Of a stretch of 64,000 nt of DNA, positions 5,952-49,376 are shown one piece after another. Each line of letters starts with the position of its first letter. Within the stretch, counting starts at the first letter, position 1. The position numbers and the translations under genes were made by a program. The notes beneath the pieces are model-generated. The model saw only the letters and a list, made by a program, of their open reading frames with translations. It made no database searches and was not told the DNA's origin. This DNA is from Janibacter terrae NBRC 107853 (GTDB lineage: Bacteria; Actinomycetota; Actinomycetes; Actinomycetales; Dermatophilaceae): positions 248,001-312,000 of the forward strand of contig NZ_BCUV01000002.1 of NCBI RefSeq assembly GCF_001591405.1, read 5' to 3'.

Positions 5952-7556
<1,605 letters not shown>

Positions 7557-7577
7557 CAGGCGCCCCGGGGGCCGCGC

Positions 7578-8045: not shown

Positions 8046-8052
8046 GGCAGCG

Positions 8053-8058
8053 AGGCTA
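8053..8058 (-). promoter_or_regulatory. -10 box TAGCCT for the small membrane protein
   Basis: Read on the minus strand, TAGCCT is 7 nt before the ATG at 8045. It sits back-to-back with the plsC -10 box (8064-8069), so two divergent leaderless promoters share about 30 bp. Confidence 0.5.
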
Positions 8059-8063
8059 GTGAC

Positions 8064-8069
8064 TACTCT
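8064..8069 (+). promoter_or_regulatory. -10 box TACTCT, leaderless start of plsC
   Basis: TACTCT is followed by 6 nt and GTG 8076. The large open frame upstream of that GTG runs antisense to the divergent gene and is not used. Confidence 0.55.
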
Positions 8070-8075
8070 GGCCGG

Positions 8076-8774
8076 GTGAACGGCAACCTCCCCATGCGCG
8101 GGCTCGAGTGGCTCCTGCGTCGAGTCCTCGTGGGACCTCCCCTTCGCGCCTACCTGCGCCTGCGGGTCGAGGGCGCCGAGCACATCCCGGCCACCGGTCC
8201 GGTCATCATCGCGAGCAACCACCTGAGCTTCGTGGACTCCATGGTCATCCCGATCGCGGCCGGCCGCAAGGTCGGCTTCCTCGGCAAGGCCGAGTACGTG
8301 CAGGGCACCGGGGTCTCCGGCTGGCTCGGTCGGCTGTGGTTCGGGGAGTTCGGCGGCATGATCCCCGTGGACCGCTCGGACGCCCGGGCCGCCGCCCGCT
8401 CGATCGAGCTCGCCGAGGAGCACCTGGCCCGCGGGGGAGCCTTCGGCATCTACCCCGAGGGGACCCGCAGCCGGGACGGCCGGCTGCACAAGGGACGCAC
8501 CGGCGTCGGGCGGCTCGCCCTGGCCAGCGGGGCCACGGTCGTCCCGTGCGCGCTCGTCGGCACCGACAAGGCGCAGCCGGTCGACTCCCGCGGCATCCGT
8601 CCGCACCGGGTCACCGTGCGCTTCGCGCCACCGGTCGACGTCGCCGCGCTGCAGGCGCAGTACACCAAGGCCCGGCTGCTGCGCGCGATCACCGACGAGG
8701 TCATGGACGCGATCGCGCAGCGCTCCCCGCAAGAGCGCTCCGACGACTACGCCAACCGCCCCGACTCGGCCTGA
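8076..8774 (+). CDS. 1-acyl-sn-glycerol-3-phosphate acyltransferase (PlsC family)
   Basis: 232 aa. The HX4D catalytic motif is NHLSFVD (His49, Asp54), block III is YPEGTRSRDG, and block II contains FGEFGGMIPVDR. These define membrane-associated acyltransferases that make phosphatidic acid or acylate related lipids from acyl-CoA or acyl-ACP. The gene precedes murT-gatD; a lipid role is known for the family, the exact acceptor is not. Confidence 0.88.
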   Translation: MNGNLPMRGLEWLLRRVLVGPPLRAYLRLRVEGAEHIPATGPVIIASNHLSFVDSMVIPIAAGRKVGFLGKAEYVQGTGVSGWLGRLWFGEFGGMIPVDRSDARAAARSIELAEEHLARGGAFGIYPEGTRSRDGRLHKGRTGVGRLALASGATVVPCALVGTDKAQPVDSRGIRPHRVTVRFAPPVDVAALQAQYTKARLLRAITDEVMDAIAQRSPQERSDDYANRPDSA

Positions 8775-8786
8775 GGCACGCTTGAG

Positions 8787-8792
8787 TACGCT
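8787..8792 (+). promoter_or_regulatory. -10 box TACGCT, leaderless start of murT
   Basis: TACGCT plus 6 nt precedes GTG 8799, again without a Shine-Dalgarno. Confidence 0.55.
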
Positions 8793-8798
8793 GGCGCG

Positions 8799-10142
8799 GT
8801 GCTGAAGACCACCGTCGCCGCCCTCGCCGGCAAGGCCGCCCGCCGTGCCGCCCGACTCCGCGGCGGCGGCTCCGGGGGCTCCGCGCTCCCCGGTCTCGTC
8901 GCCGAGCGGATCGACCCCGGGTTCCTCGCGCACGCGCTGGCGGACGTGCCGGGCGGCATCGTCGTCGTGTCCGGGACCAACGGCAAGACGACGACGACCA
9001 AGATGCTCGTCGCGCTGCTGCGGGCGCACGGGCGCACGGTCTTCACCAACCCGACGGGCAGCAACTTCACCCGCGGGGTGATCTCCGCGATGCTCGCCGA
9101 GATGCCGCTGCGCGGCCGGCTCGAGGCCGACATCGCGGTGCTCGAGCTCGACGAGGCCCACGCCCTGCACTTCGCCCGGGCGGTCGCACCGACGCACGCC
9201 CTCCTGCTCAACGTCGCCCGCGACCAGCTCGACCGCTTCGCCGAGATCGACCACACCGCGGGGCTGCTCGAGCAGCTCGCCGGCATGACGACCCGGGGGG
9301 TCGTGCTCAACCGCGACGACCCCTTCGTCAACCGCATCGCGACGACCCTCACCCCCGGCGTGGGGGTCTCGTGGTTCGGCCTCGACGCGTCCGTCGCCGA
9401 GCGCCTCGGTGAGCTGCAGGAGCACGACTCCCGCGCCCACGACGCGTGGACGCCACCGGCGGTCACCGCCGAGGACGCGCTCCTGGTGCCGCTCGACGAG
9501 CAGCGCCTGCGCGTGGACTTCGGCGAGCACGGCGAAGGGGGCACCGTCGGCCCCGTCGAGCTGCGTCAGCGTGGCCTCGCCGCGATGATCAACGCGACGG
9601 CCGCCACCGCCACCGCCCGCGCGCTGCTCGGCGACGACTTCCGCACCGACGCCGCGGAGCAGGCCCTGCGCACGGTGTCGCCCCCCTTCGGCCGCGGTGA
9701 GGTCATCGACGCCGACGGGACCCCGCTCGAGCTCGTCCTGGTCAAGAACCCCGCCGGGTTCACGGTCGCGCTCGGCACCTACGGGTCGACCCCCGTCGCG
9801 TCGATGATCGCGATCAACGACGACTACGCCGACGGGCGCGACGTGTCGTGGCTCTACGACGTGAGCTTCGAGTCCCTGCGGGACCAGGGCGTCGCCGTCA
9901 CCAGCGGCGTGCGCGGCTGGGACATGGCGCTGCGCCTGCAGTACGACGAGGTGCCCGTCGGCGGGACCGAGGTCGACCTCGCGCGAGCCCTGGACGGCTT
10001 CCTCGCCGCGCACCGCGACGAGCCCAAGCGGATCTTCTGCACCTACACGGCGATGCTCGCGCTGCGACGCATGCTGGGGGAGCGGTACGACCTGCCCGAG
10101 ATGGGCGTCGACGCCCCCGAGCCCACCGGAGGTGCGGCATGA
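8799..10142 (+). CDS. murT: Lipid II isoglutaminyl synthase, Mur ligase-like subunit MurT
   Basis: 447 aa. Mur ligase central domain with P-loop SGTNGKTTTT (58-67), the NPTGSNFTRG segment and ELDEAH, then a C-terminal DUF1727 domain. MurT works with GatD to amidate the alpha-carboxyl of D-Glu in lipid II stem peptides at the inner membrane face. The usual four-cysteine zinc ribbon inserted in the central domain is missing; the only cysteine is near the C-terminus (RIFCTYT). ATGA overlap with gatD confirms coupling. Confidence 0.92.
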   Translation: MLKTTVAALAGKAARRAARLRGGGSGGSALPGLVAERIDPGFLAHALADVPGGIVVVSGTNGKTTTTKMLVALLRAHGRTVFTNPTGSNFTRGVISAMLAEMPLRGRLEADIAVLELDEAHALHFARAVAPTHALLLNVARDQLDRFAEIDHTAGLLEQLAGMTTRGVVLNRDDPFVNRIATTLTPGVGVSWFGLDASVAERLGELQEHDSRAHDAWTPPAVTAEDALLVPLDEQRLRVDFGEHGEGGTVGPVELRQRGLAAMINATAATATARALLGDDFRTDAAEQALRTVSPPFGRGEVIDADGTPLELVLVKNPAGFTVALGTYGSTPVASMIAINDDYADGRDVSWLYDVSFESLRDQGVAVTSGVRGWDMALRLQYDEVPVGGTEVDLARALDGFLAAHRDEPKRIFCTYTAMLALRRMLGERYDLPEMGVDAPEPTGGAA

Positions 10143-10930
10143 GCCGCGACATCACGATCCTCGGCGAGCCCGCCGGCTCCGACCTGCCGGCCGAGCCCGG
10201 CAGCGAGGGCAAGGGCGAGATCCACCTCGTGCACCTCTACCCGCGCGAGATGAGCATCTACGGCGACCTCGGCAACACCCGGTGTCTCGCCTCGCGGATC
10301 CGGCGCCACGGGTACGTGCCCGTCGTCCACCAGCACCACCCCGGGCAGGACCTGCCCGAGCAGGTCGACCTGCTCGTCGGCGGCGGCGGCCAGGACTCCG
10401 GCCAGGCGAAGGTGGAGGAGGACCTCGAGCGGATCGCCGACCGGCTGCGCGCCCTGGCCGCCGACGGCACGCCGATGCTCATGATCTGCGGGATGTACCA
10501 GCTCTTCGGCAATGCCTTCATCACCGTGCAGGGCCAGCGCCTGCCCGGCCTGGGCATCCTCGACGTCACGACCCAGGGCAACGAGAAGCGGATGATCGGC
10601 CCCGTCGTGCTCTCCACCGACCACGGTGACGTCGTCGGCTACGAGAACCACTCGGGATCCACGACGCTCGGGGCGGGGCAGGCTCCCTTCGGCCGGGTGC
10701 GACACGGCCTGGGCAACAACGGCAACGACGGCACCGAGGGCGCGATCACCGGCCATGTCATCGGCTCGTACCTGCACGGCCCGATCCTCCCGGCCAACCC
10801 GCAGCTCGCGGACACGCTCATCGGGTGGGCGGCCGAGTCGGCGACGGGGCGGGAGTTCGAGCCGGGCGCGCTCGACGACGAGGTGGCCGGGCAGGCGCAG
10901 ACGCGCCAGGTGCGCCGCCTGCTCGGCTGA
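10139..10930 (+). CDS. gatD: Lipid II isoglutaminyl synthase, glutaminase subunit GatD
   Basis: 263 aa class I glutamine amidotransferase. The nucleophile is Cys117 (MICGMYQLFG) and the catalytic His is His213 (SYLHGPIL). It supplies ammonia to MurT. The start overlaps the murT stop by 4 nt. The stop codon directly abuts the stop of the convergent flippase-like gene (TGA|TCA), leaving no room for a terminator. Confidence 0.93.
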   Translation: MSRDITILGEPAGSDLPAEPGSEGKGEIHLVHLYPREMSIYGDLGNTRCLASRIRRHGYVPVVHQHHPGQDLPEQVDLLVGGGGQDSGQAKVEEDLERIADRLRALAADGTPMLMICGMYQLFGNAFITVQGQRLPGLGILDVTTQGNEKRMIGPVVLSTDHGDVVGYENHSGSTTLGAGQAPFGRVRHGLGNNGNDGTEGAITGHVIGSYLHGPILPANPQLADTLIGWAAESATGREFEPGALDDEVAGQAQTRQVRRLLG

Positions 10931-37476: not shown

Positions 37477-37504
37477 TGAACCGCGGACGGGCTCCCTGCG
37501 TACG
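37477..37504 (+). promoter_or_regulatory. SigL-type ECF promoter (autoregulatory)
   Basis: TGAACC (37477-37482), exactly 16 bp, CGTACG (37499-37504), 17 nt before the sigma factor ATG with AGGAGG between. The same -35, spacing and CGT -10 occur twice more near 39.2 kb. Confidence 0.75.
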
Positions 37505-37521: not shown

Positions 37522-38034
37522 ATGACGGACACCGGCACGGCGCTCATGCAGCAGCTGCACGACGAGCACGCTGCCGCACTCTGGGGCTACTGCCTCAGCC
37601 TCACCGGGCGTGACCACGCGCGTGCCGAGGACGTCGTGCAGGAGACGATGATCCGGGCCTGGCGAAACCGTGCTCGTCTCGACGAGAGCCACGGGTCGGT
37701 GCGGGCGTGGCTGTTCACCGTGGCCCGCAACATCGTCATCGACGAGTGGCGGACCAAGCGGTCGCAGAGCGAGCTCAGCGTGGCCGACGTGCCGGACGCC
37801 CGGGACGCCCGGGACCACACCGACGAGCTGCTGCTGTCGTGGGTGGTGGCCGATGCGCTCATGTCCCTGTCTGCTGACCACCGCGCCGTGCTGCAGGAGT
37901 GCTACTTCCGCGGGGCGTCGGTCGCGGAGGCGGGGCGGTCCCTCGGGATCCCCGAGGGGACGGTCAAGTCCCGGACGCACTACGCCCTGCGCGCGCTGCG
38001 GCTCGCCCTGCAGGAGAAGGGGGTCGGCGCATGA
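37522..38034 (+). CDS. ECF sigma factor, SigL-like
   Basis: 170 aa. Region 2: LWGYCLSLTGRDHARAEDVV and QETMIRAWRN. Region 4: VLQECYFRGASVAEAGRSLG, IPEGTVKSRTHYALRAL. It overlaps the start of a ZAS anti-sigma gene (ATGA), the usual paired arrangement. The adjacent promoter matches the SigL/RslA type of mycobacteria (TGAACC-N16-CGT). Likely responds to envelope or redox stress through the anti-sigma factor. Confidence 0.88.
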   Translation: MTDTGTALMQQLHDEHAAALWGYCLSLTGRDHARAEDVVQETMIRAWRNRARLDESHGSVRAWLFTVARNIVIDEWRTKRSQSELSVADVPDARDARDHTDELLLSWVVADALMSLSADHRAVLQECYFRGASVAEAGRSLGIPEGTVKSRTHYALRALRLALQEKGVGA

Positions 38035-38729
38035 CCTGCGAGCTCGCCCGCTGGGACGGCGCCTACGTGCTGGGTGCGCTGTCCCCGACCGAGCGCCTCG
38101 AGTTCGAGGAGCACCTCACCCGGTGCGACGACTGCAGCCGGTCGGTGCGCGAGCTCGCGGGGGTGCCGGGCCTGCTCGCGCAGGTCGGCCCCGACGACCT
38201 GCTGCCCGTGCCCCCCGTCCCGCGCACGCTCCTGCCGGGGCTCGTCGCCGACGTGCGGCACCAGCAGCGACGGCGCACCGTCGTCGTGGCCGGCCTCGCC
38301 GCCTCCGTCGCCGCGCTCACGGTCTCCGCCGCGGCGCTCGGCATGGCCGCGCTCGGCGACGGCACCGCCCCGGACCCGGGGGTGGCGGCGCCACCGGTCG
38401 CCACGAGCCCGGTGCCCTCGCTCCCGATGACCGCCGTCGGACGCGTGCCGGTGGAGGCGGACCTGCAGCTGGAGAGCGTGGCCTGGGGCACCCGGATCGA
38501 GGTGACGTGCACCTACGAGCAGGAGGCCGGCCACACGCCCGCCTACGAACCCGAGTACGCCCTCGTCGTGCGGACGCAGGGCGGGACGACCGAGAGGGTG
38601 GCCACCTGGCGGGGCCTGCCCGGGCGGACGATGCACCTGTCGGCGGCCACAGCCACCGGGCGCGGGGACATCGAAACCGTGGAGATGCGCTCGGAGGACG
38701 GGACCACCCTCCTGCGGCTGACGATCTGA
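38031..38729 (+). CDS. ZAS-domain membrane anti-sigma factor (RslA-like)
   Basis: 232 aa. The N-terminal zinc-binding anti-sigma domain has His28-x3-Cys32-x2-Cys35 (EEHLTRCDDC), the redox-sensitive ligand set. One membrane helix spans about 82-106 (VVVAGLAASVAALTVSAAAL). The C-terminal extracytoplasmic domain has a Cys in VTCTYEQE. Sequesters the preceding sigma factor at the membrane until thiol oxidation or another envelope signal releases it. Confidence 0.88.
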   Translation: MTCELARWDGAYVLGALSPTERLEFEEHLTRCDDCSRSVRELAGVPGLLAQVGPDDLLPVPPVPRTLLPGLVADVRHQQRRRTVVVAGLAASVAALTVSAAALGMAALGDGTAPDPGVAAPPVATSPVPSLPMTAVGRVPVEADLQLESVAWGTRIEVTCTYEQEAGHTPAYEPEYALVVRTQGGTTERVATWRGLPGRTMHLSAATATGRGDIETVEMRSEDGTTLLRLTI

Positions 38730-38737
38730 GCCCCGCG

Positions 38738-39133
38738 TCAGTGGGTCCGCAGGGTGCGAGAGCGCAGGCGCGGTCGACGGGCCGGCGCGTGGTGGCGCAG
38801 CAGGGACAGGCCGCCGACGATGCACACGATCTCGGCGATCGCGGCGGTGAGGACCCAGCCGCCCGTCCACCGCTCGTGCACCCCGAAGAGCCCGACCGAG
38901 GCGGAGGTGACGAAGGCGCCCAGAGTGCTCGCCCCGAAGCCCAGCACGAGGAGGGCCGGGACCCAGTGCCGCCACCCGATGAGGAGGCCGGCGATGACGA
39001 GGCCCGCCATCGCGTTGAGCAGGAAGGCCGGACCGATGACGTCGAGGTCCCGGTAGCCCTCGAACGCCCACAGGACGAGGTGCACCGCCGCCGAGACGAG
39101 GGCTGCCGTTGCCGTGATGAGTCGGGTGCGCAT
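38738..39133 (-). CDS. Small four-helix membrane protein under the same ECF promoter
   Basis: 131 aa, four helices (about 5-22, 33-51, 57-80, 90-112), basic C-terminus RRPRLRSRTLRTH. GGAGGAG precedes the ATG. The minus-strand promoter TGAACC-N16-CGTGAT makes it a predicted target of the neighbouring sigma factor. Not recognised further. Confidence 0.7.
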   Translation of the reverse strand: MRTRLITATAALVSAAVHLVLWAFEGYRDLDVIGPAFLLNAMAGLVIAGLLIGWRHWVPALLVLGFGASTLGAFVTSASVGLFGVHERWTGGWVLTAAIAEIVCIVGGLSLLRHHAPARRPRLRSRTLRTH

Positions 39134-39178: not shown

Positions 39179-39206
39179 ATCACGGCCGCGGCGGCCCTGC
39201 GGTTCA
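39179..39206 (-). promoter_or_regulatory. SigL-type ECF promoter of the small membrane gene
   Basis: Minus strand: TGAACC (39206-39201), 16 bp, CGTGAT (39184-39179), about 45 nt before the ATG at 39133. Divergent from, and 26 bp away from, the operon promoter. Confidence 0.7.
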
Positions 39207-39232: not shown

Positions 39233-39260
39233 TGAACCATCGCCCGGCACGCTCCGTGTC
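39233..39260 (+). promoter_or_regulatory. SigL-type ECF promoter of the nine-gene operon
   Basis: TGAACC (39233-39238), 16 bp, CGTGTC (39255-39260), 32 nt before GTG 39293 with GAGG ribosome-site sequence between. Confidence 0.75.
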
Positions 39261-39292: not shown

Positions 39293-40300
39293 GTGAGCGG
39301 CCCGGACCGGGCCTACTGGCTGCGTGCCCCCGGGTCCGGGGAGATCCGGCCGGTCGTCCTGCGCGCCCCCGGTCCCGGTGAGGTCCGGGTGCGCACCGTG
39401 CGCTCCGGGGTCAGCCGGGGCACCGAGGCCCTCGTCCACCGCGGTGGCGTCCCCCCCGACCAGTACGCGGTGATGCGAGCCCCCTTCCAGGCAGGGGACT
39501 TCCCCGGACCGGTGAAGTACGGCTACCTGAGCGTCGGCGTCGTCGAGGAGGGACCGCACGACCTGCGGGGTCGTCGGGTCTTCTGCCTGCACCCCCACCA
39601 GACGGCCTACGTCGTCCCCGTCGGCGCGGTCGTCCCGGTGCCCGACGAGGTGCCCGATGACCGGGCCGTCCTCGCCGGGACCGTCGAGACGGCCGTCAAC
39701 GCCCTGTGGGACGCCACCCCGCTGGTGGGGGAGCGGGTGGTCGTCGTCGGCGCCGGCATGGTCGGCCTGTGCATCGCCCGGCTGCTCGTGGGCATCCCCG
39801 GCGCCGAGGTGACCGTCGTCGACCTCGATCCGCGAAGGGAGCCGGTGGCCCGAGCGCTCGGTGCGGATTTCTCCCTTCCCGCCGACGCGCCGCGTGACCG
39901 TGACCTCGTCGTCCACGCCAGCGCCACCGGCGCCGGCCTACAGCTCTCGCTCGACCTGCTCGCGGCCGAGGGGAGCGTCCTGGACGTCAGCTGGTACGGC
40001 GACACCGAGGTGGGCCTCCGGCTGGGTGGCGCCTTCCACGCGCGCCGGCTGTCGATCCGGGCGAGTCAGGTGGGGACCGTCTCGCCGCGGCGCCGTCCCG
40101 GGCGCACGACCCACGAGCGGCTCCGGCTCGCGATGGAGCTGCTGCGTGACCCCGCCTTCGACGCGATCATCACGGGCAGCTCCCCCTTCGACGACCTGCC
40201 CGAGGTCATGCCGCGGATCGCCTCGGGGGCCCTCCCGGCGCTGTGCCACACGATCACGTACCCGGCGGGCAGAGGAGGCGGGATGAGATGTTCAGCGTGA
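39293..40300 (+). CDS. Medium-chain dehydrogenase, first gene of pterin/envelope operon
   Basis: 335 aa MDR-superfamily protein with a clear Rossmann site [17 protein letters not shown], an acidic NAD-preferring end VVDLDPRRE, and the N-terminal GroES-like part ([19 protein letters not shown]). The catalytic-zinc Cys and structural-zinc cysteines are absent, so alcohol dehydrogenation is not assured. It overlaps the next gene by 13 nt. Substrate unknown; it may oxidise or reduce an intermediate of the operon's product. Confidence 0.82.
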
Positions 40301-40686
40301 CGGTGAGGGACCACGTGATGGTGGCCCACAGCCTGCGGGGAGAGGTCTTCGGCCCCGCGCAGCGGCTGCACGGCGCGACCTATGTCGTCGACGCGACCTT
40401 CCGCGCCGCGCAGCTCGACGACGACGGGCTCGTCGTCGACATCGGCGCGGCGACGGTGGCCCTGGCGGCCGTCCTCGCCGACCTGGCCCACCGCAACCTC
40501 GACGACGACCCGACGCTGGTCGACGTCAACACCACGACCGAGCGGCTGGCGCAGGTCGTCGCGGACCGGCTCGCGGACCGGGTCGCGGACGGGGAGGTGG
40601 GTGCCGATGTCGGCCACCTGACCGGCCTGGCCGTCACCCTCCACGAGTCGCACATTGCGTGGGCGAGCTACGAGCGTGCGCCGTGA
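40288..40686 (+). CDS. PTPS/QueD-fold protein lacking catalytic Cys and one zinc ligand
   Basis: 132 aa, length and fold pattern of 6-pyruvoyl-tetrahydropterin / 6-carboxytetrahydropterin synthase: [67 protein letters not shown]. Zinc ligands His14 and His28 remain, but the third (HGH in the family) is Ala30, and the Cys that precedes the LHG segment in active enzymes is absent. It may bind a pterin-like or other substrate without the normal reaction. AGAGGAGG ribosome site; the start lies inside the dehydrogenase gene. Confidence 0.85.
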
Positions 40687-41777
40687 CCGCCGTGCACGTC
40701 GTCGTCCCGGAGGGCGTGGACGACCCGACCCGGCCGAGCGGCGGCAACACCTACGACCTCCGGGTCTGCGCGGGGCTGGCCCGTCGCGGCTGGGCGGTGA
40801 GCCGCCACGAGGCCACCGGGCGGTGGCCCGGACCGGACGCTGCCGCGCGGCAGGCGCTGGGGGCCAGGTTGGCGGGCCTGTCGCGCGGCTCTCTCGTCCT
40901 CGTCGACGGGCTCGTGGCCTCGGCGGTCCCCGAGGTCCTCGTCGCCGAGGCCCGTCGGTTGCGGGTGGTCGTGCTGCTGCACCTGCCCCGCGGCCACGAC
41001 GCGGCCGGGGGCGTCGACGGTGCCCCGGCACTCCGCCGCCGGACCCGGGCGGACGAAGGCGCGGTGCTGCGCGCGGCGGCGGGCGTCATCGTCCCGAGCC
41101 GGTGGACGCGCGACTGGGTCGTCGAGGCCTACGGCCTCGCGGCCGACCGCGTCGACGTGGTGGCGCCGGGAGTCGACGCCGCCCCGCTCGTGGCGGGCGG
41201 ACCAGCGGGGAGCCGCCTGGCGTGCATCGGGGCCGTGGTCCCGACGAAGGGGCAGGACCGGCTCGTCGACGCGCTCGCGGACCTCACGGACCTGTCTTGG
41301 TCCTGCCAGGTCGTCGGGTCGCTCGATGTCGAGCCGTCGTGGGCCCGACGTCTCGGGCGGAGGGTCGAAGGGGGTGGCCTCGGGGAGCGGGTGCGCCTGC
41401 GTGGACCGCTCCCGGGACCGGAGGTGGACGCGGTGTACGCCGACAGCGACCTCGTCGTCGTCCCGTCGAGGATCGAGACGTACGGCCTGGTCGTGACCGA
41501 GGCCCTCGCGAGGGGCATCCCCGTCGTCGCGTCGCACGTGGGTGGCCTGCCCGAGGCGCTGGGTGACACGCCGCTCGGTCGGCCCGGGGTCCTGGTGCCA
41601 CCCGACGACCCCGCCGGCCTCGCCCGTGCGCTGCGGCGATGGATCACGGACGCGGGGCGACGTGCCGACCTGAGGTCGGCGGCACGCGCGCGGCGGGAGG
41701 CCCTCGCGGACTGGTCGACGACGTCCGACGGTGTGTCCGCCGTGCTGTCGGCCGTGCGGACCGGGGCGGCCGCATGA
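40683..41777 (+). CDS. GT4 family glycosyltransferase of the operon
   Basis: 364 aa GT-B enzyme. N-terminal loop [20 protein letters not shown]; donor-domain motifs [37 protein letters not shown] (EX7E-like) and GGLPEALG. Cytoplasmic, nucleotide-sugar dependent. GTG 40683 overlaps the previous stop (GTGA); an upstream ATG eight codons earlier is less likely. Probably glycosylates the operon's product or a lipid carrier. Confidence 0.87.
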
Positions 41778-42601
41778 GCGCGTCGATGGTCACGGTGAGC
41801 CCCGACTGGCTGCGGCTGCGGGAGCCGGCTGATGCAGCGGCTCGGTCCCTCCGCCTGCGGTGGACGCTCGGGCAGGTCCTCGCCGACACCCCGTGCCACG
41901 TCGTGCACGACCTGGGGAGCGGCACCGGGTCCATGGGGCGCTGGCTCGCCCCGCGCCTGCCCGGTCGGCAGCACTGGGTCCTGCACGACCGGGACGCCAC
42001 CCTCCTCGACGTCGCCGCCGCCCACCCGCCGACCGCAGCGCTGGACGGGGCTGCGGTGAGCGTCGAGACGCGTACGGGGGACCTCACCCGCCTCGATGCG
42101 GACGACGTCGCCGACGCCACGCTGATCACGGCCTCTGCCCTGCTCGACATGCTCACGCTCGAGGAGGTGGAGCGCGTCGTGGCGCGGTGCGTGCAGGCGC
42201 GGTGCCCGGTGCTCCTGACCCTCAGCGTCACGGGCCGGGTCCGGCTCACGCCGGGGGAGTGGCTCGATGCGCGCCTCGAGACCGCCTTCAACGACCACCA
42301 GCGCCGCCGTGCGGGCGAGCGGGCCCTGCTCGGACCCGACGCGGCCGCAGCGGTCCGCGACCTGGCCCGTGGTCGTGGTGCGCGGGTGCTGGTGGCGACC
42401 AGCCCGTGGCGCCTCGGCGCCGACGCGGCGGCGCTCGCGGGCGCCTGGCTCACGGGGTGGCTGGCAGCCGCGGTCGAGCAGCGCCCGGACCTGCTCGACG
42501 CCGTCGCCGGGTACGCCGGGCTCCGGCGGGCGCAGCTGGCCGGGGGCGGGCTGGGCGTCCTGGTCGACCACGTCGACCTGCTGGTCCTGCCGACTCGGTG
42601 A
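41774..42601 (+). CDS. Class I SAM-dependent methyltransferase
   Basis: 275 aa. SAM motif I HDLGSGTGSMGRWLA, motif II acidic end LHDRDATLLDVA, then TGDLTRLDADDVADATLITA. Acceptor not deducible. ATGA overlap with the glycosyltransferase; 16 nt separate its stop from the next start. Confidence 0.8.
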   Translation: MSASMVTVSPDWLRLREPADAAARSLRLRWTLGQVLADTPCHVVHDLGSGTGSMGRWLAPRLPGRQHWVLHDRDATLLDVAAAHPPTAALDGAAVSVETRTGDLTRLDADDVADATLITASALLDMLTLEEVERVVARCVQARCPVLLTLSVTGRVRLTPGEWLDARLETAFNDHQRRRAGERALLGPDAAAAVRDLARGRGARVLVATSPWRLGADAAALAGAWLTGWLAAAVEQRPDLLDAVAGYAGLRRAQLAGGGLGVLVDHVDLLVLPTR

Positions 42602-42617
42602 ACCGGGAGGGGGCGTC

Positions 42618-43523
42618 GTGCGTGTCACTGCTGTGGAGACACCGGGCTCGTCGACGAGGTCGTGGCGGCGGTGGGTGCGTCCCGTCGTCGGCGCCACGAT
42701 CCTCGGCGTGCTCCTCGCCCGGGTCGGCGCCGGAGCGGTGGTGGAGGGCCTGCTGTCCGTCGACGTCCTCGTGGTCGCCGTCGCCGTGCTGCTGACGGCG
42801 GTGACGACGACCAGCAGCGCGTGGCGCTGGCAGGTCGTCGCGGGGCGTCTCGGCGTCGGTCTGCCGCTGCCTGCGGCCGTCGCGGCCTGCTACCGGTCCC
42901 AGCTGGTCAACCTCACGCTGCCGGGAGGCGTCGTGGGCGATGTCGAGCGCGCGGTGCGGCACGGTCGGAGCACGGCCGACCTGCGCGCCGGCCTGGGTGC
43001 GGTCGCCGTCGAGCGTCTGGTGGGTCAGGCCGTGCTCGTCCCCCTGGCCGTCGTGGCAGCCGCGGCCGCGGGCATCGTGCCGGTCCCGGTCGCTGCGGGT
43101 GTCCTGGCGCTGGTGGTGGGTGGGCTGTGGCTCGAGCGTCGTCACGGCTGGTCGGTCATCGCCCGCGTCGTGCTCGCCTCGGTCGTCGCGGTCGCAGGTC
43201 ACGTCGCGATCTTCGTCCTCGTGGCCCGCGCCGTGGGGGTGAGCCTGCCCCTGGGGGTGCTGCTCCCGCTGACGCTCGTGGTGCTCCTCGTCGCGGGCAT
43301 CCCGCTCAGCATCGCCGGGTGGGGCCCGCGTGAGGGCGCCGCGGCGTGGGCCTTCGCCGCGGCCGGAGCCACGGCGGCGCAGGGCCTGGCCGTGGCCGTC
43401 GCCTTCGGCGCAGTCGTCACCGTCGCGACGCTGCCCGGTGCGGTGGTCCAGCTGCACCGGCCGCGGGTGGTGCGCGGCGGGCACGCCCTCGCCCCGGCAC
43501 CGGGGGTGGGCACCCGTGGCTGA
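42618..43523 (+). CDS. YbhN-type membrane protein, flippase-like
   Basis: 301 aa with about eight helices. Family signature RSQLVNLTLPGGVVGDVERAVR and later SIAGWGPREGAAAWAFA. Same superfamily as the protein at 10931-11998. Members are thought to move lipids or lipid-linked sugars; here it would export the operon's lipid-linked product. GGGAGGGGG ribosome site; overlaps the next gene by 8 nt. Confidence 0.82.
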   Translation: MRVTAVETPGSSTRSWRRWVRPVVGATILGVLLARVGAGAVVEGLLSVDVLVVAVAVLLTAVTTTSSAWRWQVVAGRLGVGLPLPAAVAACYRSQLVNLTLPGGVVGDVERAVRHGRSTADLRAGLGAVAVERLVGQAVLVPLAVVAAAAAGIVPVPVAAGVLALVVGGLWLERRHGWSVIARVVLASVVAVAGHVAIFVLVARAVGVSLPLGVLLPLTLVVLLVAGIPLSIAGWGPREGAAAWAFAAAGATAAQGLAVAVAFGAVVTVATLPGAVVQLHRPRVVRGGHALAPAPGVGTRG

Positions 43524-44256
43524 GCGGCCCTACACGATCCTCAGCTGCGCCGTCTCCCTCGACGGCTACCTCGACGACGCCACCGGCACCCGGCTCGTCC
43601 TGTCCAACGCCGCCGACCTCGACCGCGTCGACGACGTCCGGGCCGGGTGCGACGCGATCCTCGTGGGCGCGGGGACGATCAGGGCCGACGACCCACGCCT
43701 GCTCGTCCGCTCCGAGCACCGGCGCGCCGCCCGGGTCCTCGCCGGGCTCCCCGGGTCGCCCTGCAAGGTCACGGTGACCCGGCGCGCAGCCCTGGACCCG
43801 GCGGCGCGGTTCTTCGCCGACGACGGGGTCGACAAGCTCGTCTACTGCTCCTCGGCGGCAGCCCCGCGGACCCGGGCGCGGCTGGGCGTCCGGGCGCACG
43901 TCGTCGACGCGGGCCCACGGCCGACCCTGCGCACCGTGAGCGCGGACCTGGGGCGAAGGGGGGTGCGGCGGCTCCTCGTCGAGGGCGGCCAGCAGGTGCA
44001 CACCCAGTTCCTCGCCGAGGACCTCGCCGACGAGCTCCACCTCGTCCTGGCCCCGATCTTCGTCGGCGACTCGCACGCGCACCGCGTCGTTGCGGACGGG
44101 CCCCTCCCGTGGAACCGGGACCACCGCGCGCGCCTGGCCGAGGTGCGTCGGATCGGGGACGTCGTGCTCATGCGCTACGCCCTGTCCGCGCGCTGCGACG
44201 GGGACGGGCACGCTGCCGTCAGTGCCTCCGAGCGCCTCCTGGGGGTCCGGCCATGA
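43516..44256 (+). CDS. Stand-alone RibD-C reductase (DARPP reductase-like)
   Basis: 246 aa, NADPH reductase domain only: SCAVSLDGYLDDATGTRLVL, VGAGTIRADDPRLLV, RRLLVEGGQQVHTQFL. No deaminase domain. Resembles the reductases that convert the GTP cyclohydrolase II product to its ribityl form. Next to a second RibA, it points to a GTP-derived diaminopyrimidine pathway separate from the rib operon at 27-30 kb. GTG start overlapping the flippase gene. Confidence 0.86.
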   Translation: MAERPYTILSCAVSLDGYLDDATGTRLVLSNAADLDRVDDVRAGCDAILVGAGTIRADDPRLLVRSEHRRAARVLAGLPGSPCKVTVTRRAALDPAARFFADDGVDKLVYCSSAAAPRTRARLGVRAHVVDAGPRPTLRTVSADLGRRGVRRLLVEGGQQVHTQFLAEDLADELHLVLAPIFVGDSHAHRVVADGPLPWNRDHRARLAEVRRIGDVVLMRYALSARCDGDGHAAVSASERLLGVRP

Positions 44257-44888
44257 GGCACCGACTCGCCGCTGCCGCGATCAGGACCGAGGTCCCCCTT
44301 CCGCTGGCCTTCGCCGACGGCTACCGCGTCGAGGGCCGCGTCATCAGCTTCACCGGGCTCATCGACGGCCGCGAGCACATCGCGGTCGCCCTCGGCGCGG
44401 TCGACGCACCGCGCGACCCGCTCGTGCGGATCCACAGCGAGTGCCTCACCGGTGACGTCCTCGGCAGCGAGCGGTGCGACTGCGGGCCCCAGCTGCGGGA
44501 GGCCGTCGAGCGGATCGCCGAGGTCGGTGGCCACCTGCTCTACCTGCGGCAGGAGGGACGAGGCATCGGCTTGTCCGCGAAGCTCGACGCCTACGCACTC
44601 CAGGACGCGGGGCTGGACACCTACGAGGCCAACGAGGCGCTGGGCTTCGAGGCGGACGCCCGCGACTACACCGTGGCGGTGCAGATGCTCCGGGCGCTCG
44701 GGCTGGAGCGGGTGGCCCTGCTGAGCAACAACCCGGACAAGGTCGCCCAGCTCGAGCGGCTCGGCATCCGGGTCGTCGAGCAGGTGCCGACCGCGGTGCA
44801 CCGGAGCGCGGCCAACGCCCGGTACCTCGCGACGAAGGCCGCCCGGGGCGCGCACCGCTTCGCGCCGATCGCACCGCCTCGGCCGTGA
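44253..44888 (+). CDS. Second GTP cyclohydrolase II (monofunctional)
   Basis: 211 aa RibA. Zinc ligands Cys64, Cys75, Cys77 (ECLTGDVLGSERCDCG), RQEGRGIGLSAKLDAYALQD and LLSNNPDKV are all conserved, so catalysis is expected: GTP to 2,5-diamino-6-ribosylamino-pyrimidinone 5'-phosphate, formate and pyrophosphate. Paralogous to the RibA half of ribBA. Overlaps both neighbours (ATGA, GTGA). Confidence 0.92.
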   Translation: MRHRLAAAAIRTEVPLPLAFADGYRVEGRVISFTGLIDGREHIAVALGAVDAPRDPLVRIHSECLTGDVLGSERCDCGPQLREAVERIAEVGGHLLYLRQEGRGIGLSAKLDAYALQDAGLDTYEANEALGFEADARDYTVAVQMLRALGLERVALLSNNPDKVAQLERLGIRVVEQVPTAVHRSAANARYLATKAARGAHRFAPIAPPRP

Positions 44889-47221
44889 CCACGCCGCGCG
44901 TGCTCGTCCCCGCACGGGCCGTAGGGGCTCCGCGCACCGGGACCTGTGCCGCGGTCGGGACGGCCGGGCTCGCCACCCTGCTCGCGTTGCTGGGCGAGGT
45001 CGCCGGGCTCACCGCGCCGGGCTGGGCCGTCGGGTCCGTGTGCGGTGGCGCGTTGACCCTCTACCTGCTGCGGGGACTCGCGGCCGCGGGCTCCCGGTCG
45101 CCGGGCCCCGCCGATCTCATCACCTACGGCCGGGGGCTGCTCGCGTGCGGGGTCGCGGGGCTGGCGGCGGAGTCCCTGGTCGCGCAACCCCAGCCCGTGG
45201 CCGTCCTCGTCCTGGCCGCCCCGGCTCTCGTCCTCGACGCGGTCGACGGGAGGCTGGCGCGCCGGACAGGGACGGTCTCGCCCTTCGGTGCGCGCTTCGA
45301 CGGAGAGGTCGACGCTTTCCTCATCCTCGCGCTCAGCGTCTTCGTCGCGCCGACCTACGGGTGGTGGGTCCTGGCGGCAGGCCTGGCGCGCTACGCCTTC
45401 GCCGCGGCCGGGGTGGTCCTGCCCTGGCTGCGCGGACCCCTGGGGTACCGCTACTGGCGCAAGGTCGTCACGGCCACGGTAGGCGTTGTCCTCGCGGTGG
45501 CCGCCTCCGGCGTGCTGCCGCACGGGTGGATGGAGGCCGCGCTGGTCGGTGCCCTCGCCCTCCTCACCGAGTCCTTCGGGCGCGACGTGCGGACGCTGTG
45601 GCGTGCCCGTCACCCGGGCCGGCGGCGGGTGGCCCCCTTCGTCCTCGGCGTGGTGGCCCTGGCCGCGCTGTGGTTCGCGCTCGTGGCGCCGACCGACCCG
45701 GACCGCATGTCCGTGCTCGCCCTGCTGAGGCTGCCGCTCGAGGCCGTGGCGCTCGCCGGCCTGGCGGTCCTGCTCCCGTCACGATGGGCTGCGGTGCTCG
45801 GGGTGGGCGCGGGCCTCGCCCTCGGGGTGGTGACCGTCCTCAAGGTCCTCGACCTGGGCGCCGTCACCGTGCTCGGACGTCCCTTCGAGGTGACGACGGA
45901 CGGCCCGCTGCTGGCGTCCGGGCTGTCCTTCGTCGACGACTCGGCGGGTCCGTGGGCGGCGCGAGGCGCTGTGGTCCTGGCGGCGGTCCTCGTCCTCGCT
46001 GCCGTCGCCGGCCTGCCCCGGGCCACGACACGGCTGGTGCGCGCCGCCCGGCACCACCGCCGGGTCGCGGAGCGGCTCGTCCTCGTCTCGGCGACCGTGT
46101 GGGTGGTGGCCGCCGGAGCGGGCCTGCGGTCGTCCGCCGGTCCCGTGGCCGTCACCGGCTCCGGGCCCTATGTCGTCGACAAGGCCCGGGCATCGCTCGA
46201 GGCGCGGCACGACCTGGCGCAGTTCGAGCAGCAGGTCACCGACGACCCCTTCGCCTCGGCGCCACCGGACCTGGCCGGTCTGGCCGGCAAGGACGTGCTC
46301 GTCGTCTTCGTCGAGAGCTACGGTCGCGTCGCCGTCGAGGGACCGGGGTCCGGCGGCGTGCGGGGTCTGCTGCGCGCGGGTGGGGACTCGTTGGAGTCAC
46401 GCGGGTTCACGGCGAGGAGCGGCTACCTCACGTCGTCGACCTTCGGTGGGAGCAGCTGGCTGGCCCACTCGACCCTGCAGGCCGGCGTGCCCGTGACGGA
46501 CCAGCTGCGCTACGAGGCCCTGCTCGGCACCGGGCGCAGCACGCTGTCGACGGTCCTCGGGCGAGGTGGGTGGCGCTCGGTCGCCCTCCTGCCGTCGGTG
46601 GACCGACCGTGGCCGCAGGGGCAGCGGTTCTACGGCTTCGACCGCGTCTACGGTACCCACGACCTCGGCTACGCGGGTCCCCGTTTCGGCTTCTCGAAGG
46701 TGCCGGACCAGTTCGCCCTGACCGAGTTCGGTCGACGTGAGCTCACCCCTTCCCGCCGTCCGCCCGTCGTGGCCCAGATCGAGCTCACCTCGAGCCACGG
46801 CCCGTGGGCGCCGCTGCCCACGCGCGTCGACCCGGCCGACCTCGGTGACGGGTCGGTCTACGCCGACATCGCGGCCCGCGCGGAGGGCCCGGAGCAGCTC
46901 CTGCGCCATCGCGAGGACGTGCCGGCGGCCTACCGGGAGTCCATCGCCTACTCGCTGACGAGCGTCCTGGACCTGCTCGCGGCCCACGACGACGAGGACC
47001 TCGTCGTCGTCCTGCTGGGGGACCACCAACCGGCGTCCGTGGTGAGCGGGCACGGAGGCAACCGCGACGTCCCGGTGAGCGTGGTCGCCCGCGACCGGGC
47101 GGTGGTCGACCGCATCGCCGCGTGGGGATGGACCCCAGGCCTGGTCCCGGATCGTGGTGCCCCGGTGTGGCCGATGGCCGACTTCCGCGACCGCTTCCTC
47201 ACGTCGCAGAGCACGCGATGA
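44885..47221 (+). CDS. CDP-alcohol phosphatidyltransferase fused to LtaS-like phosphotransferase
   Basis: 778 aa in two parts. Residues about 20-230 form a polytopic CDP-alcohol phosphotransferase with the complete motif Asp121-Gly, Ala125-Arg126, Gly135, Asp139, Asp143. A further helical region runs to about 430. The extracytoplasmic C-terminus (about 470-778) is alkaline phosphatase/sulfatase-like: Glu477 in FVESYGR, candidate nucleophile in STFGGSSW (518-525), LTSSHGPW and Asp713-His714 in LLGDHQP, as in lipoteichoic acid synthases. It may make a phospholipid headgroup and transfer a phospho-alcohol outside the membrane. Starts GTG within the ribA stop. Confidence 0.85.
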   Translation: MTTPRVLVPARAVGAPRTGTCAAVGTAGLATLLALLGEVAGLTAPGWAVGSVCGGALTLYLLRGLAAAGSRSPGPADLITYGRGLLACGVAGLAAESLVAQPQPVAVLVLAAPALVLDAVDGRLARRTGTVSPFGARFDGEVDAFLILALSVFVAPTYGWWVLAAGLARYAFAAAGVVLPWLRGPLGYRYWRKVVTATVGVVLAVAASGVLPHGWMEAALVGALALLTESFGRDVRTLWRARHPGRRRVAPFVLGVVALAALWFALVAPTDPDRMSVLALLRLPLEAVALAGLAVLLPSRWAAVLGVGAGLALGVVTVLKVLDLGAVTVLGRPFEVTTDGPLLASGLSFVDDSAGPWAARGAVVLAAVLVLAAVAGLPRATTRLVRAARHHRRVAERLVLVSATVWVVAAGAGLRSSAGPVAVTGSGPYVVDKARASLEARHDLAQFEQQVTDDPFASAPPDLAGLAGKDVLVVFVESYGRVAVEGPGSGGVRGLLRAGGDSLESRGFTARSGYLTSSTFGGSSWLAHSTLQAGVPVTDQLRYEALLGTGRSTLSTVLGRGGWRSVALLPSVDRPWPQGQRFYGFDRVYGTHDLGYAGPRFGFSKVPDQFALTEFGRRELTPSRRPPVVAQIELTSSHGPWAPLPTRVDPADLGDGSVYADIAARAEGPEQLLRHREDVPAAYRESIAYSLTSVLDLLAAHDDEDLVVVLLGDHQPASVVSGHGGNRDVPVSVVARDRAVVDRIAAWGWTPGLVPDRGAPVWPMADFRDRFLTSQSTR

Positions 47222-47997
47222 CCGCGCCGGCGACTCCTGAGCGCGTGCTCTGGGAGGCCCGACGCGCGGGGTTCGCCCCGGGGGAGTTCGTGGGCCAGCA
47301 GAGCTTCGTCTCGGCCTCGGAGGTGGGTTGGCTCGCCTCCCGGGCGCGGGTCGCCCCGGGCGTTCGGGTGCTCGACCTGTGCTGCGGCCTCGCCGGGCCC
47401 GGTCTGTGGGTCACCGGGGCGCTCGGGTGCGACTACCTCGGGGTCGACGCCGACGCGGACGCGATCGCGACGGCACGTGGGAGGGCGAGCGAGCTGGGGG
47501 TGGGGGCCCGGTTCGTCGTGGGCCGGGTGCCGCCGCTGCCGCCGGGCACCTTCGAGGTCGTGCTGCTGCTCGAGACCCTGCTCGCCTTCCGGGACAAGGC
47601 GGCTCTGCTGGTCCGTATCGCGGCCGCCCTCGAGCCGGGCGGCCGGTGCGCCCTGACCGTCGAGGCAGGGGACCCGCTGGGCCCTGCGGAGCGCGCGGTG
47701 ATGCCGGGGTCGGACACCGTGTGGCCGACGCCCTTCGCGCAGCTGCGGGCCGACCTCGAGGCAGCCGGGCTGCGGCTGGTCGCCCGCACCGACCGCAGCC
47801 TCGACCACGCGCGCGTGGCGCTGGCGCTCGCCGCGTCCTACGAGCGCCGGGCACCCCGTCTCGACGCGGTGGTCGGTGCGGGCGCGCGTCGCGACATCAT
47901 CGCGGGGCACCGGCTCTGGGCCGAGTGGCTCGCCTCCGGTCGGATCCGCAAGTACTGCGTCGTCGCCGAGCGGGTGCGCGCCCAGCGCCTCTGGTGA
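47218..47997 (+). CDS. SAM-dependent methyltransferase, last gene of the operon
   Basis: 259 aa. SAM site VRVLDLCCGLAGPGLWV, then LGVDADADAIATAR and VVLLLETLLAFRDK. Similar to UbiE/Cyp-type small-molecule methyltransferases. ATGA overlap with the fusion gene. Converges on the rskA-like gene with 18 bp between stops. Confidence 0.82.
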   Translation: MTAPATPERVLWEARRAGFAPGEFVGQQSFVSASEVGWLASRARVAPGVRVLDLCCGLAGPGLWVTGALGCDYLGVDADADAIATARGRASELGVGARFVVGRVPPLPPGTFEVVLLLETLLAFRDKAALLVRIAAALEPGGRCALTVEAGDPLGPAERAVMPGSDTVWPTPFAQLRADLEAAGLRLVARTDRSLDHARVALALAASYERRAPRLDAVVGAGARRDIIAGHRLWAEWLASGRIRKYCVVAERVRAQRLW

Positions 47998-48015: not shown

Positions 48016-48753
48016 TCAGCCGAGCTCGACGAGTGCCACCGGGTCGCTCGTCGGCTGCCTCGACCCACCGGCCGGCTCCATGGTCAGGCCCACCCCCGCG
48101 GCTGTCGAGACATCCCCTTCGAGGAGCATCTCGCCGTCGGTGCCGGGCACCATCCCGGCGGAGGTCATCTCGCCCGAGGCGTCCTGCAGCCAGGCCTGGT
48201 AGGCCCGGCCCTCGCCGGGCGCGGAGAGGCCCTCGACGCGCAGCACGGCCCGGTCCATGTCCTCGGAGCGGGTGATCCTGACGGTGCCACCGTCTGCCGT
48301 CGTCGCGGACCAGCTGTGGGCGTCGTCCGCAGCCACGACCTGCTCGGTCAGGCTCTGGCTCGTGCGCTCGACCACCTGCCAGGTGGCGCCACCGCCGACG
48401 ACGAGGGCGGCGGCCGCGGCGAGGGCGACCCAGCGTCGCCGCACCCGCTGACGCAGGGGAGTCACGGTCGCCTGCTCGGCCTCGGCCTCGGCCTCGGCCG
48501 CGGGCTCCGGCCCGGGCACCGGTGGCGGGTCCTGCCGGGTGGTGCGGACCGCGGCCAGCACGTCGGCGCGCAGCGCGGGCGGCGGGGTGACGGCGACCGT
48601 CTCCGCGAGCAGCGGTGTGACCAGGCGGAAGGAGTCCACCTCGTCGCGGCAGGTCGAGCACCGCGCGAGGTGCTGCTCGAAGTCGGCTCGTTCCCCGTCG
48701 TCGAGGGCGTCGAGGACGTAGGCCCCGGAGAGGCTGTGCAGGTCTTCGCTCAT
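48016..48753 (-). CDS. Anti-sigma-K factor (RskA-like)
   Basis: 245 aa. N-terminal ZAS-like motif His28-x3-Cys32-x2-Cys35 (EQHLARCSTC), one helix near 107-126 (WVALAAAAALVVGGGATWQV), C-terminal RskA domain with AYQAWLQDASGEM. An acidic repeat (AEAEAEAE) precedes the helix. Holds SigK inactive at the membrane; regulated by stepwise proteolysis in related systems. Overlaps sigK by 4 nt. Confidence 0.9.
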   Translation of the reverse strand: MSEDLHSLSGAYVLDALDDGERADFEQHLARCSTCRDEVDSFRLVTPLLAETVAVTPPPALRADVLAAVRTTRQDPPPVPGPEPAAEAEAEAEQATVTPLRQRVRRRWVALAAAAALVVGGGATWQVVERTSQSLTEQVVAADDAHSWSATTADGGTVRITRSEDMDRAVLRVEGLSAPGEGRAYQAWLQDASGEMTSAGMVPGTDGEMLLEGDVSTAAGVGLTMEPAGGSRQPTSDPVALVELG

Positions 48754-49376
48754 GGTGTCACTCCCAACTGGTCCCTCAGGCGGATGAGTCCGTCGCGGAT
48801 GCGTGTCTTGGCGGTGCCGAGCGGCAGGTCGAGGAGGCCGGCCACCTCGGTGTGGGTGTAGCCGCCCAGGTAGGCGAGGCTCACCGCCTCCCGTTGCGCC
48901 GCGGTCAGCCCGTCGAGCGCGGAGCGCACCCGTCTGGCCTCGATGCGGGCGGTCGCCAGCTCGGCGGTGGTGTCGAAGTCGACCTCACGGGTGCGCGCGT
49001 GCCAGGTGTCGTCACGGGTGACGGCCGCCTGGCTCGAGCGCACCCGGTCGATGGCCCTGCGGTGGGCCATGGTCAGCATCCAGCCGATCGCCGACCCCTT
49101 GCGCGGGTCGAAGTGGCTGGCCCGGCGCCAGACCTCGAGGAAGACCTCCTGCGTGACCTCCTCGGACTGCGCGGGGTTGCGCAGGACCCGCAGGACGAGT
49201 CCGTGCAGCCGCGGTGCGGTCTCGTCGTACACCGCCGCGAAGGCCGCCTCGTCCCCCTTCGCCACCTGCTTGAGGCGTTGGGCGAGCGGGTCGCCGACAC
49301 CGCCGGCAGGCTCCCCCTGGGCGCCGGTGAGGGCGTCCGGGGGGTCCTGCTGGTGGGGAGGGGGCACGAGGTCCAT
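48750..49376 (-). CDS. sigK: ECF sigma factor SigK
   Basis: 208 aa. Region 2 VYDETAPRLHGLVLRVLRN, EEVTQEVFLEVWRRA, AIGWMLTMAHRRAIDRVR; region 4 VSLAYLGGYTHTEVAGLLD, LPLGTAKTRIRDGL. The N-terminal 30 residues are Pro/Gly-rich and may be partly untranslated. Pairing with RskA and a fasciclin lipoprotein matches the SigK regulon. It follows the fasciclin gene by 14 nt, so it is transcribed from that gene's SigK-type promoter (autoregulation). Confidence 0.92.
   Translation of the reverse strand: MDLVPPPHQQDPPDALTGAQGEPAGGVGDPLAQRLKQVAKGDEAAFAAVYDETAPRLHGLVLRVLRNPAQSEEVTQEVFLEVWRRASHFDPRKGSAIGWMLTMAHRRAIDRVRSSQAAVTRDDTWHARTREVDFDTTAELATARIEARRVRSALDGLTAAQREAVSLAYLGGYTHTEVAGLLDLPLGTAKTRIRDGLIRLRDQLGVTP

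Follow-up and report, generated by a model that had tools for sequence, protein, structure and literature searches.

The window, a stretch of 64,000 nucleotides from Janibacter terrae NBRC 107853 (G000:C2:248001-312000; host genome 3.58 Mb), contains nine consecutive genes on the forward strand (39293-47997), all eight junctions of which, as calculated from the gene coordinates, are overlaps or gaps of no more than 13 nt. The genes and the features preceding them are listed in Table 1. Domain calls on the nine operon proteins were made by comparing Pfam and NCBIfam profile scores with the curated cut-offs. The original prediction had described a tightly packed run of nine genes, whose positions and strand were confirmed, and its assignments of a dehydrogenase (DH), a PTPS-fold protein, a GT4 glycosyltransferase, two methyltransferases (MT1 and MT2), a flippase-like protein, a RibD-type reductase and a GTP cyclohydrolase II (GCH II) agree with Pfam, with the DH scoring below the cut-off. 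For the proposed CDP-alcohol/LtaS-like fusion, the CDP-alcohol part was borne out, whereas the LtaS-like half turned out weaker than claimed (Sulfatase PF00884, 18.7 bits; cut-off 25). The GT4 gene may start at 40683 instead of 40659, and, as positions 42599-42623 are taken up by a promoter-like motif, the flippase-like gene probably begins further downstream than 42615. The nearest solved relatives of the DH were only general MDR enzymes, and no close relative of MT1 was found among solved structures, so that neither protein provided a clue to its substrate.

Table 1. Features of the nine-gene operon and its upstream region (window positions).
Feature	Position	Strand	Supporting evidence
ECF promoter-like motif TGAACC-N16-CGT, before sigma gene	37477..37501	+	
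ECF sigma factor	37522..38034	+	Pfam Sigma70_r2/r4; NCBIfam NF007227 227 bits, cut-off 202
Zinc-finger anti-sigma factor	38031..38729	+	zf-HC2 32 bits; HxxxCxxC, seen as HLTRCDDC
Small divergent membrane protein, 131 aa	38738..39133	-	Absent from earlier gene list
ECF promoter-like motif, before divergent membrane-protein gene	39182..39206	-	
ECF promoter-like motif, before operon	39233..39257	+	
MDR-family dehydrogenase (DH)	39293..40300	+	ADH_zinc_N 25 bits, cut-off of 31.8 not reached
PTPS-IV protein	40288..40686	+	PTPS 86.7 bits; FGPAQ signature
GT4 glycosyltransferase	40659..41777	+	Glycos_transf_1 99.8 bits
SAM methyltransferase MT1	41774..42601	+	Methyltransf_25 29.1 bits
ECF promoter-like motif, before flippase-like gene	42599..42623	+	
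Flippase-like membrane protein	42615..43523	+	LPG_synthase_TM 90.5 bits
Stand-alone RibD_C reductase	43516..44256	+	RibD_C 132.5 bits, deaminase domain absent
GTP cyclohydrolase II (GCH II)	44253..44888	+	GTP_cyclohydro2 195 bits
CDP-alcohol phosphotransferase fused to AlkP/LtaS-like domain	44885..47221	+	CDP-OH_P_transf 46.6 bits
SAM methyltransferase MT2	47218..47997	+	Methyltransf_25 42.5 bits

The PTPS protein was scanned against the genome collection, and the best 80 of 398 relatives were taken as loci, a sample that is skewed because about half of its members are Streptomyces. Genes were called present at E ≤1e-10, with some loci being cut by contig ends. DH, PTPS and GT4 occurred together in 78 of these best 80 of 398 loci and the six core genes in 62, compared with 0-2 of the 80 for each of 14 flanking window genes used as controls (sigma and anti-sigma genes included). 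Individual counts in the same 80 loci were 78 for DH, 79 for GT4, 69 for MT1, 73 for the flippase-like protein, 73 for the CDP-alcohol enzyme, 66 for GCH II, 27 for the window-type reductase and 49 for a creatininase-family gene; the LtaS-like half (10) and MT2 (2) were rarer, and a second set of 27 relatives' loci contained them 9 and 5 times, respectively. The recurrence of the neighbourhood thus exceeds chance, and the LtaS-like fusion, MT2 and even GCH II are optional in relatives. A survey of the neighbourhood had been named beforehand as a possible refutation; among the best 80 of 398 loci, the unit recurs, though patchily, in seven orders of Actinomycetes (the Streptomyces order, Micromonosporales, Pseudonocardiales, Streptosporangiales, Propionibacteriales, Micrococcales and Mycobacteriales) and in Thermoleophilia bins. 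One of these loci is labelled Burkholderiaceae and possibly represents a misbinned contig. PTPS-family matches were obtained in 82 of 296 genomes of the phylum, only nine of them at E 1e-29 or better. The PTPS protein was present in 16 of 58 relatives, including four of the fifteen genus mates sampled, so that the unit is patchy even inside the genus. The operon represents a real pathway of wide occurrence and patchy retention.

Five matches to the motif TGAACC-N16-CGT were obtained in the window, against 0.30 expected, and four of them precede the sigma gene, DH, the divergent membrane-protein gene and the flippase-like gene. The loci Knoellia L046 and L146 contain five matches each and a linked sigma pair; in each, two of the motifs precede DH, one per strand, and two others precede the flippase-like gene and the sigma gene. 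Across 54 non-Streptomyces loci, window included, 31 of 51 matches preceded a gene for DH, the CDP-alcohol enzyme or the flippase, falling in 24 loci (0.76 expected). The motif was absent upstream of these genes in 48 Streptomyces loci, 43 of which carry the variant TGAAC-N17-CGT before the CDP-alcohol gene (2.2 expected); eleven patterns were tried, and both expected counts are to be read with that in mind. TGAAC followed by CGT after 16-18 nt was without a match in 35 of 102 loci, and no sigma factor for TGAAC-N17-CGT was found in the Streptomyces loci. Homologues of the sigma factor were located near the cluster in Knoellia L046 (82% identity) and L146 (75%), and both loci also contain anti-sigma homologues; a sigma-factor match at E 1e-10 was obtained in only 2 of the best 80 of 398 loci. 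The small divergent membrane protein (DUF7670, 14 bits; cut-off 29) was recovered in Knoellia L046 (64%), in L142 (60%) and weakly in L092 (35%, E 0.001). The sigma/anti-sigma pair (37522-38729) is probably part of the unit in the window and in Knoellia L046 and L146, and the divergent gene in the window and L046, neither being so in most relatives. Control of the operon by the upstream sigma factor is plausible in view of the linked homologues in Knoellia L046 and L146 and the motif enrichment, and the linked factor would be the one to read the TGAACC-N16-CGT motifs. A second sigma/anti-sigma pair (48016-49376) was rejected as regulator, since none of the best 80 of 398 loci has it close to the cluster; a scan of viral contigs with the sigma factor returned nothing.

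The sigma factor passes the NCBIfam model NF007227, which we take to stand for SigL. The SigL/RslA pair of Mycobacterium tuberculosis likewise combines an ECF sigma factor with an anti-sigma factor carrying HxxxCxxC, and RslA is described as redox-sensitive (PMC2877774). The two pairs differ in their target genes, and their likeness is one of profile and motif. No SigL promoter consensus was found in the literature examined.

The window GCH II scored 261 bits with NF001591 (cut-off 148), and its zinc cysteines C64, C75 and C77 were invariant in 14 aligned rows. At the switch position, which we take from the work on SCO6655, it has Tyr. SCO6655 was reportedly assayed, and according to Spoonamore and Bandarian it is said to retain the formyl group because this Tyr is replaced by Met. 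GCH II was sought within 9 kb of PTPS in 92 PTPS-match loci, window included; it was not found in 18 and was readable in 74, with 48 carrying Met, 5 His and 21, among them the window, Tyr. Within 9 kb of PTPS, each of the 53 Met/His loci had a creatininase-family gene, which the 21 Tyr loci lacked without exception, and five further Tyr loci from relatives also proved free of it (0/26 Tyr loci overall). Fisher's test yielded p 1.9e-21 with kinship ignored. Mapped onto a tree of 86 loci, switch residue and creatininase each change about three times, and only one independent pair is well supported, so that the association is perfect yet non-significant by sign test. One locus (L097) has a creatininase gene and no readable GCH II.

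The creatininase of the relatives' clusters matched Creatininase PF02633 (214 bits), and no such gene was detected in the cluster of the window. For the two cluster creatininases that were scanned, the best score was with mycofactocin MftE, under the cut-off; ArfB gave 36.6 bits (cut-off 180). The proposed deformylation is a reaction performed by BrbF, a bacterial formamidase of the same family, which feeds riboflavin in Rhizobiales (PMC9478397); the enzyme of the relatives instead accompanies a Met/His GCH II in the cluster. Comparison supports the predicted entry steps well, and within the same neighbourhood one entry module takes the place of the other.

The reductase matched only RibD_C in Pfam, the N-terminal deaminase domain of the riboflavin enzyme RibD being absent. 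Its profile scored 166 bits against the solved structure 5xv5 (with 5xux also near), 133 against 6p8c, annotated as 2,5-diamino-6-ribosylamino-pyrimidinone phosphate reductase, 101 against 2azn, 90 against the RibD-named Rv2671 (4xrb) and 69 against 2b3z, the best two-domain RibD. The best NCBIfam match was the archaeal-type reductase model TIGR01508, at 122 bits (cut-off 186). This nearness to archaeal-type enzymes, rather than to two-domain RibD, suggests a 2,5-diamino substrate. Of the 21 Tyr loci, 19 have a reductase of the window type in the cluster, counted at 50% identity or more. Whole-genome searches covered 28 cluster genomes behind the best 80 of 398 loci, mostly selected because the gene was missing from their cluster: 20 of them contained an orthologue with 51-57% identity, located outside the fetched stretch in 19 cases and inside in one (L085), one carried a GCH II fused to RibD_C (L118), and seven Streptomyces had a divergent in-cluster RibD_C gene with 28-37% identity (Pfam check: L113). 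One of the 20 orthologue matches has an inner stop. Candidates were also found in 13 of another 14 cluster genomes (two through in-cluster genes with 35-41% identity, above the Pfam cut-off) and in 9 of a further 11 (three through in-cluster genes with 30-33%). Overall, 50 of 53 cluster genomes have a candidate for the dedicated reductase, whether inside the cluster or elsewhere, and none was identified in G008, G337 and G345, the last of which is cut by its contig. The idea that creatininase-bearing clusters have no reductase was wrong for the 28 genomes searched whole. Orthologues of the L113 in-cluster gene in other Streptomyces, also considered, were not borne out.

FGPAQ, which marks PTPS-IV, occurs in the window PTPS protein, and PF00925 and PF01872 lie nearby, as given for the PTPS-IV neighbourhood in PMC5445326, where PF00925 is called FolE2. 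SCO6650 (3d7j) is its orthologue (E 4.5e-55) and its only solved relative at E 0.001. The structure presumably has neither zinc nor PTPS activity. Alignment with E. coli QueD revealed that the catalytic Cys and the third of the zinc histidines are lost, whereas the invariant Glu, which anchors pterin-like rings in the PTPS fold, is retained. HGA replaces HGH in the window and in 14 other full-type loci aligned, HGH being kept in L042 and L043, and the catalytic-position Cys is absent in 17/17 aligned sequences. Identity with QueD (PTPS-I) was rejected, as CxxxHGH with three Zn histidines is missing and the NCBIfam QueD score was 45.7 bits (cut-off 89.25). No QueC or QueE is encoded among the nine operon genes, and a role in queuosine or 7-deazapurine synthesis does not fit the PTPS motif and the gene neighbours.

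Every residue of the CDP-alcohol phosphotransferase motif DxxDGxxAR(x8)GxxxDxxxD was invariant in 14 sequences. The nearest solved relatives of this enzyme, all weak, were choline/ethanolamine and serine phosphotransferases, and the best NCBIfam match was archaetidylinositol phosphate synthase (26.7 bits; cut-off 180). The LtaS-like half contains candidate catalytic residues (E477, T519, H638, D713 and H714) that were invariant in five aligned fusions and correspond to residues with this role in LtaS. Known LtaS and CDP-alcohol lipid-headgroup systems share the CDP-alcohol motif and the candidate AlkP residues E, T, H, D and H; the window fusion differs in uniting the domains for both activities in one protein and in its sub-cut-off Sulfatase score.

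Toxoflavin-type clusters comprise a GCH II, a two-domain RibD homologue beside it and a methyltransferase and are not known to have a membrane or lipid half. GCH II, a RibD-type enzyme and a methyltransferase are thus common to both; the window reductase, without a deaminase domain, is not a two-domain RibD, and membership in this cluster type is unsupported. A further related system comprises the PTPS-IV neighbourhood (COG0720 cluster-node 62, PMC5445326) and the S. coelicolor cluster SCO6650-SCO6655, with FGPAQ, PF00925 and PF01872 in common with the window. The gene order PTPS-GT4-MT1-FLIP-creatininase-GCH II of Streptomyces, seen in L035, would fit the SCO6650-SCO6655 tags; the window differs in its Tyr GCH II, in-operon reductase and LtaS-like fusion. 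SCO6652 is given values of 0.8, 4.3 and 4.1, without a stated unit, in a table comparing mycelial stages (PMC3610822), and the genes that PMC2853524 lists as anticorrelated in the metabolic switch include both SCO6655 and SCO2687. The label 'uncharacterised' held in part: the PTPS-IV neighbourhood with PF00925 and PF01872 is already in print (PMC5445326), the SCO6650 structure is solved and SCO6655 was reportedly assayed, whereas no description of the whole pathway was found in the open literature among the matches listed. The available part of PMC5445326 mentions the two Pfam neighbours and not the pathway, the membrane half or the regulon.

The linking of GCH II/reductase chemistry with a glycosyltransferase, a methyltransferase, a flippase-like protein and a CDP-alcohol phosphotransferase, as put forward in the original prediction, is real. 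The leading explanation, adopted tentatively and as a whole, is that the operon is the long form of a conserved actinobacterial pathway, a GTP-derived branch off riboflavin synthesis that ends in a lipid-coupled, glycosylated and methylated product. The branch point would be the first intermediate of riboflavin synthesis. GCH II would convert GTP to 2,5-diamino-6-ribosylamino-4(3H)-pyrimidinone 5'-phosphate (APy); for Streptomyces and some relatives, a Met/His GCH II would yield the formylated compound, from which the neighbouring creatininase-family amidase would remove the formyl group. The stand-alone RibD_C enzyme would then turn the ribosyl into a ribityl chain ahead of any deamination, as in archaea, so that the 2-amino group would be retained. 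The zinc-less PTPS-IV protein and the DH may modify the polyol phosphate further, perhaps closing a pterin ring, after which the sugar would come from GT4 and the methyl group from MT1. On chemical grounds, the CDP-alcohol phosphotransferase would attach a lipid to the phosphorylated polyol, transport of the lipid-linked compound across the membrane would fall to the LPG_synthase_TM protein, and in operons that encode it the LtaS-like domain would work on the headgroup outside, with the ECF sigma factor switching on the unit. Sequence comparison supports the conserved gene set, the entry module, the near-constant reductase and the shared promoter motif; we infer all chemistry after the reductase, the lipid attachment and the external step. 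The product would be a methylated, glycosylated pyrimidine or pterin, either attached to the membrane or exported.

The same entry chemistry could instead yield a pteridine or pyrimidine glycoside that is soluble and exported, with the flippase-like protein acting as exporter and the CDP-alcohol enzyme serving general lipid supply. Consistent with this unlikely reading, two distant clusters (L042 and L043) consist of reductase, DH, PTPS-family protein, GT4 and methyltransferase, perhaps the oldest core, and have neither the flippase nor the CDP-alcohol enzyme beside them; retention of both latter genes, each in 73 of the best 80 of 398 loci, and their common promoter motif argue against it.

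It is rather improbable that GCH II and the reductase are extra riboflavin genes now located beside an unrelated envelope-glycolipid operon. The riboflavin pathway (RibBA and RibD, or archaeal GCH III, ArfB and reductase) shares GCH II and a reductase with the operon, and a deformylase with its relatives. In favour of this reading, the window also has a rib operon with its own RibD_C and GCH II matches ~9 kb upstream, and five genomes taken as Streptomyces have the reductase orthologue unlinked to the cluster and adjoining a Tyr GCH II. Of 29 genomes lacking the cluster PTPS, 3 likewise encode an orthologue with 50-56% identity (G246, G050 and G235), compared with 7 of 13 that have the PTPS (p 0.005, kinship ignored), so that the reductase may have another use. 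However, the riboflavin pathway, unlike the nine-gene operon, includes a deaminase domain, a lumazine synthase and a riboflavin synthase, the two synthases not being found by Pfam among the nine genes, and the rib genes of the window are separate from the operon; membership of the operon in the riboflavin pathway is unsupported. The missing deaminase domain, the candidate reductase found in almost all cluster genomes despite varied arrangements, and the replacement of one entry module by another further oppose this reading.

That the unit supplies a redox cofactor, for example F420 or a pterin of the methanopterin type, is very improbable: PTPS-IV is said, as an unpublished result, to be involved in F420 synthesis (PMC5041015) and the reductase resembles archaeal enzymes, but two CofD-family matches were obtained in 5/5 tested genomes without the cluster PTPS (G107, G171, G246, G299 and G301) and one only in the cluster-bearing Agromyces L092/G380 (26 genomes searched), so that, with one match presumably representing YvcK alone and two YvcK plus CofD, cluster and F420 genes do not co-occur and a place in the F420 pathway is unsupported.

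For the lipid-coupled branch off riboflavin synthesis, a still more specific form is conceivable, though somewhat unlikely in all its parts: an actinobacterial phospholipid with a GTP-derived ribityl-diaminopyrimidine or pterin glycoside as headgroup, built by the CDP-alcohol enzyme, transferred outside by the LtaS-like domain in some lineages and placed under redox-sensing ECF control. Such a compound would represent a redox-active or light-absorbing class of lipids, of which we know of no description, and any lipid product would constitute a new headgroup class. For years, no pathway had been available in which to place PTPS-IV or the Streptomyces GCH II that retains the formyl group. The conserved genes, the two swapped entry modules, the near-constant reductase and the ECF-type motif now offer one that can be tested step by step, leading from an intermediate of vitamin B2 synthesis seemingly to the cell envelope in a large group of soil bacteria.

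In two loci from distant actinobacteria (L042 and L043), the genes for the reductase, dehydrogenase, PTPS, GT4 and methyltransferase were found together, with the HGH motif of the PTPS intact and no membrane genes adjoining the set, an arrangement that is perhaps the ancestral form. The reductase was also detected unlinked to the cluster in five genomes taken as Streptomyces (L153-L157, ~7500-10900), where it adjoins a Tyr-type GCH II; another genome of the same group (G246) carries the reductase without the cluster PTPS. For the PTPS of Streptomyces sp. NBC_01549 (L091; 65% identity), none of the other cluster genes was matched within the 20 kb stretch around it. One cluster (L051) sits on a contig binned as Burkholderiaceae, which may be actinobacterial and misbinned.

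Further features of the window are listed in the table. The second sigma/anti-sigma pair was found near the cluster in none of the best 80 of the 398 relatives' loci, and the distant promoter-like motif could be a further target of the operon-linked sigma factor or else a chance match.

Additional features in the window
Feature	Position	Strand	Remarks
Small membrane protein, divergent	38738-39133	-	conserved in Knoellia (L046) and in L142
ECF-type motif of the divergent membrane-protein gene itself	39182	-	
Second ECF sigma and RskA-like anti-sigma pair	48016-49376	-	convergent with operon
TGAACC-N16-CGT, fifth match	2475-2499	+	remote from operon

In the Pseudonocardia clusters L118 and L059, a histidine-phosphatase gene (13300-13917 in L118) lies 3' of the flippase gene, a possible dephosphorylation step.
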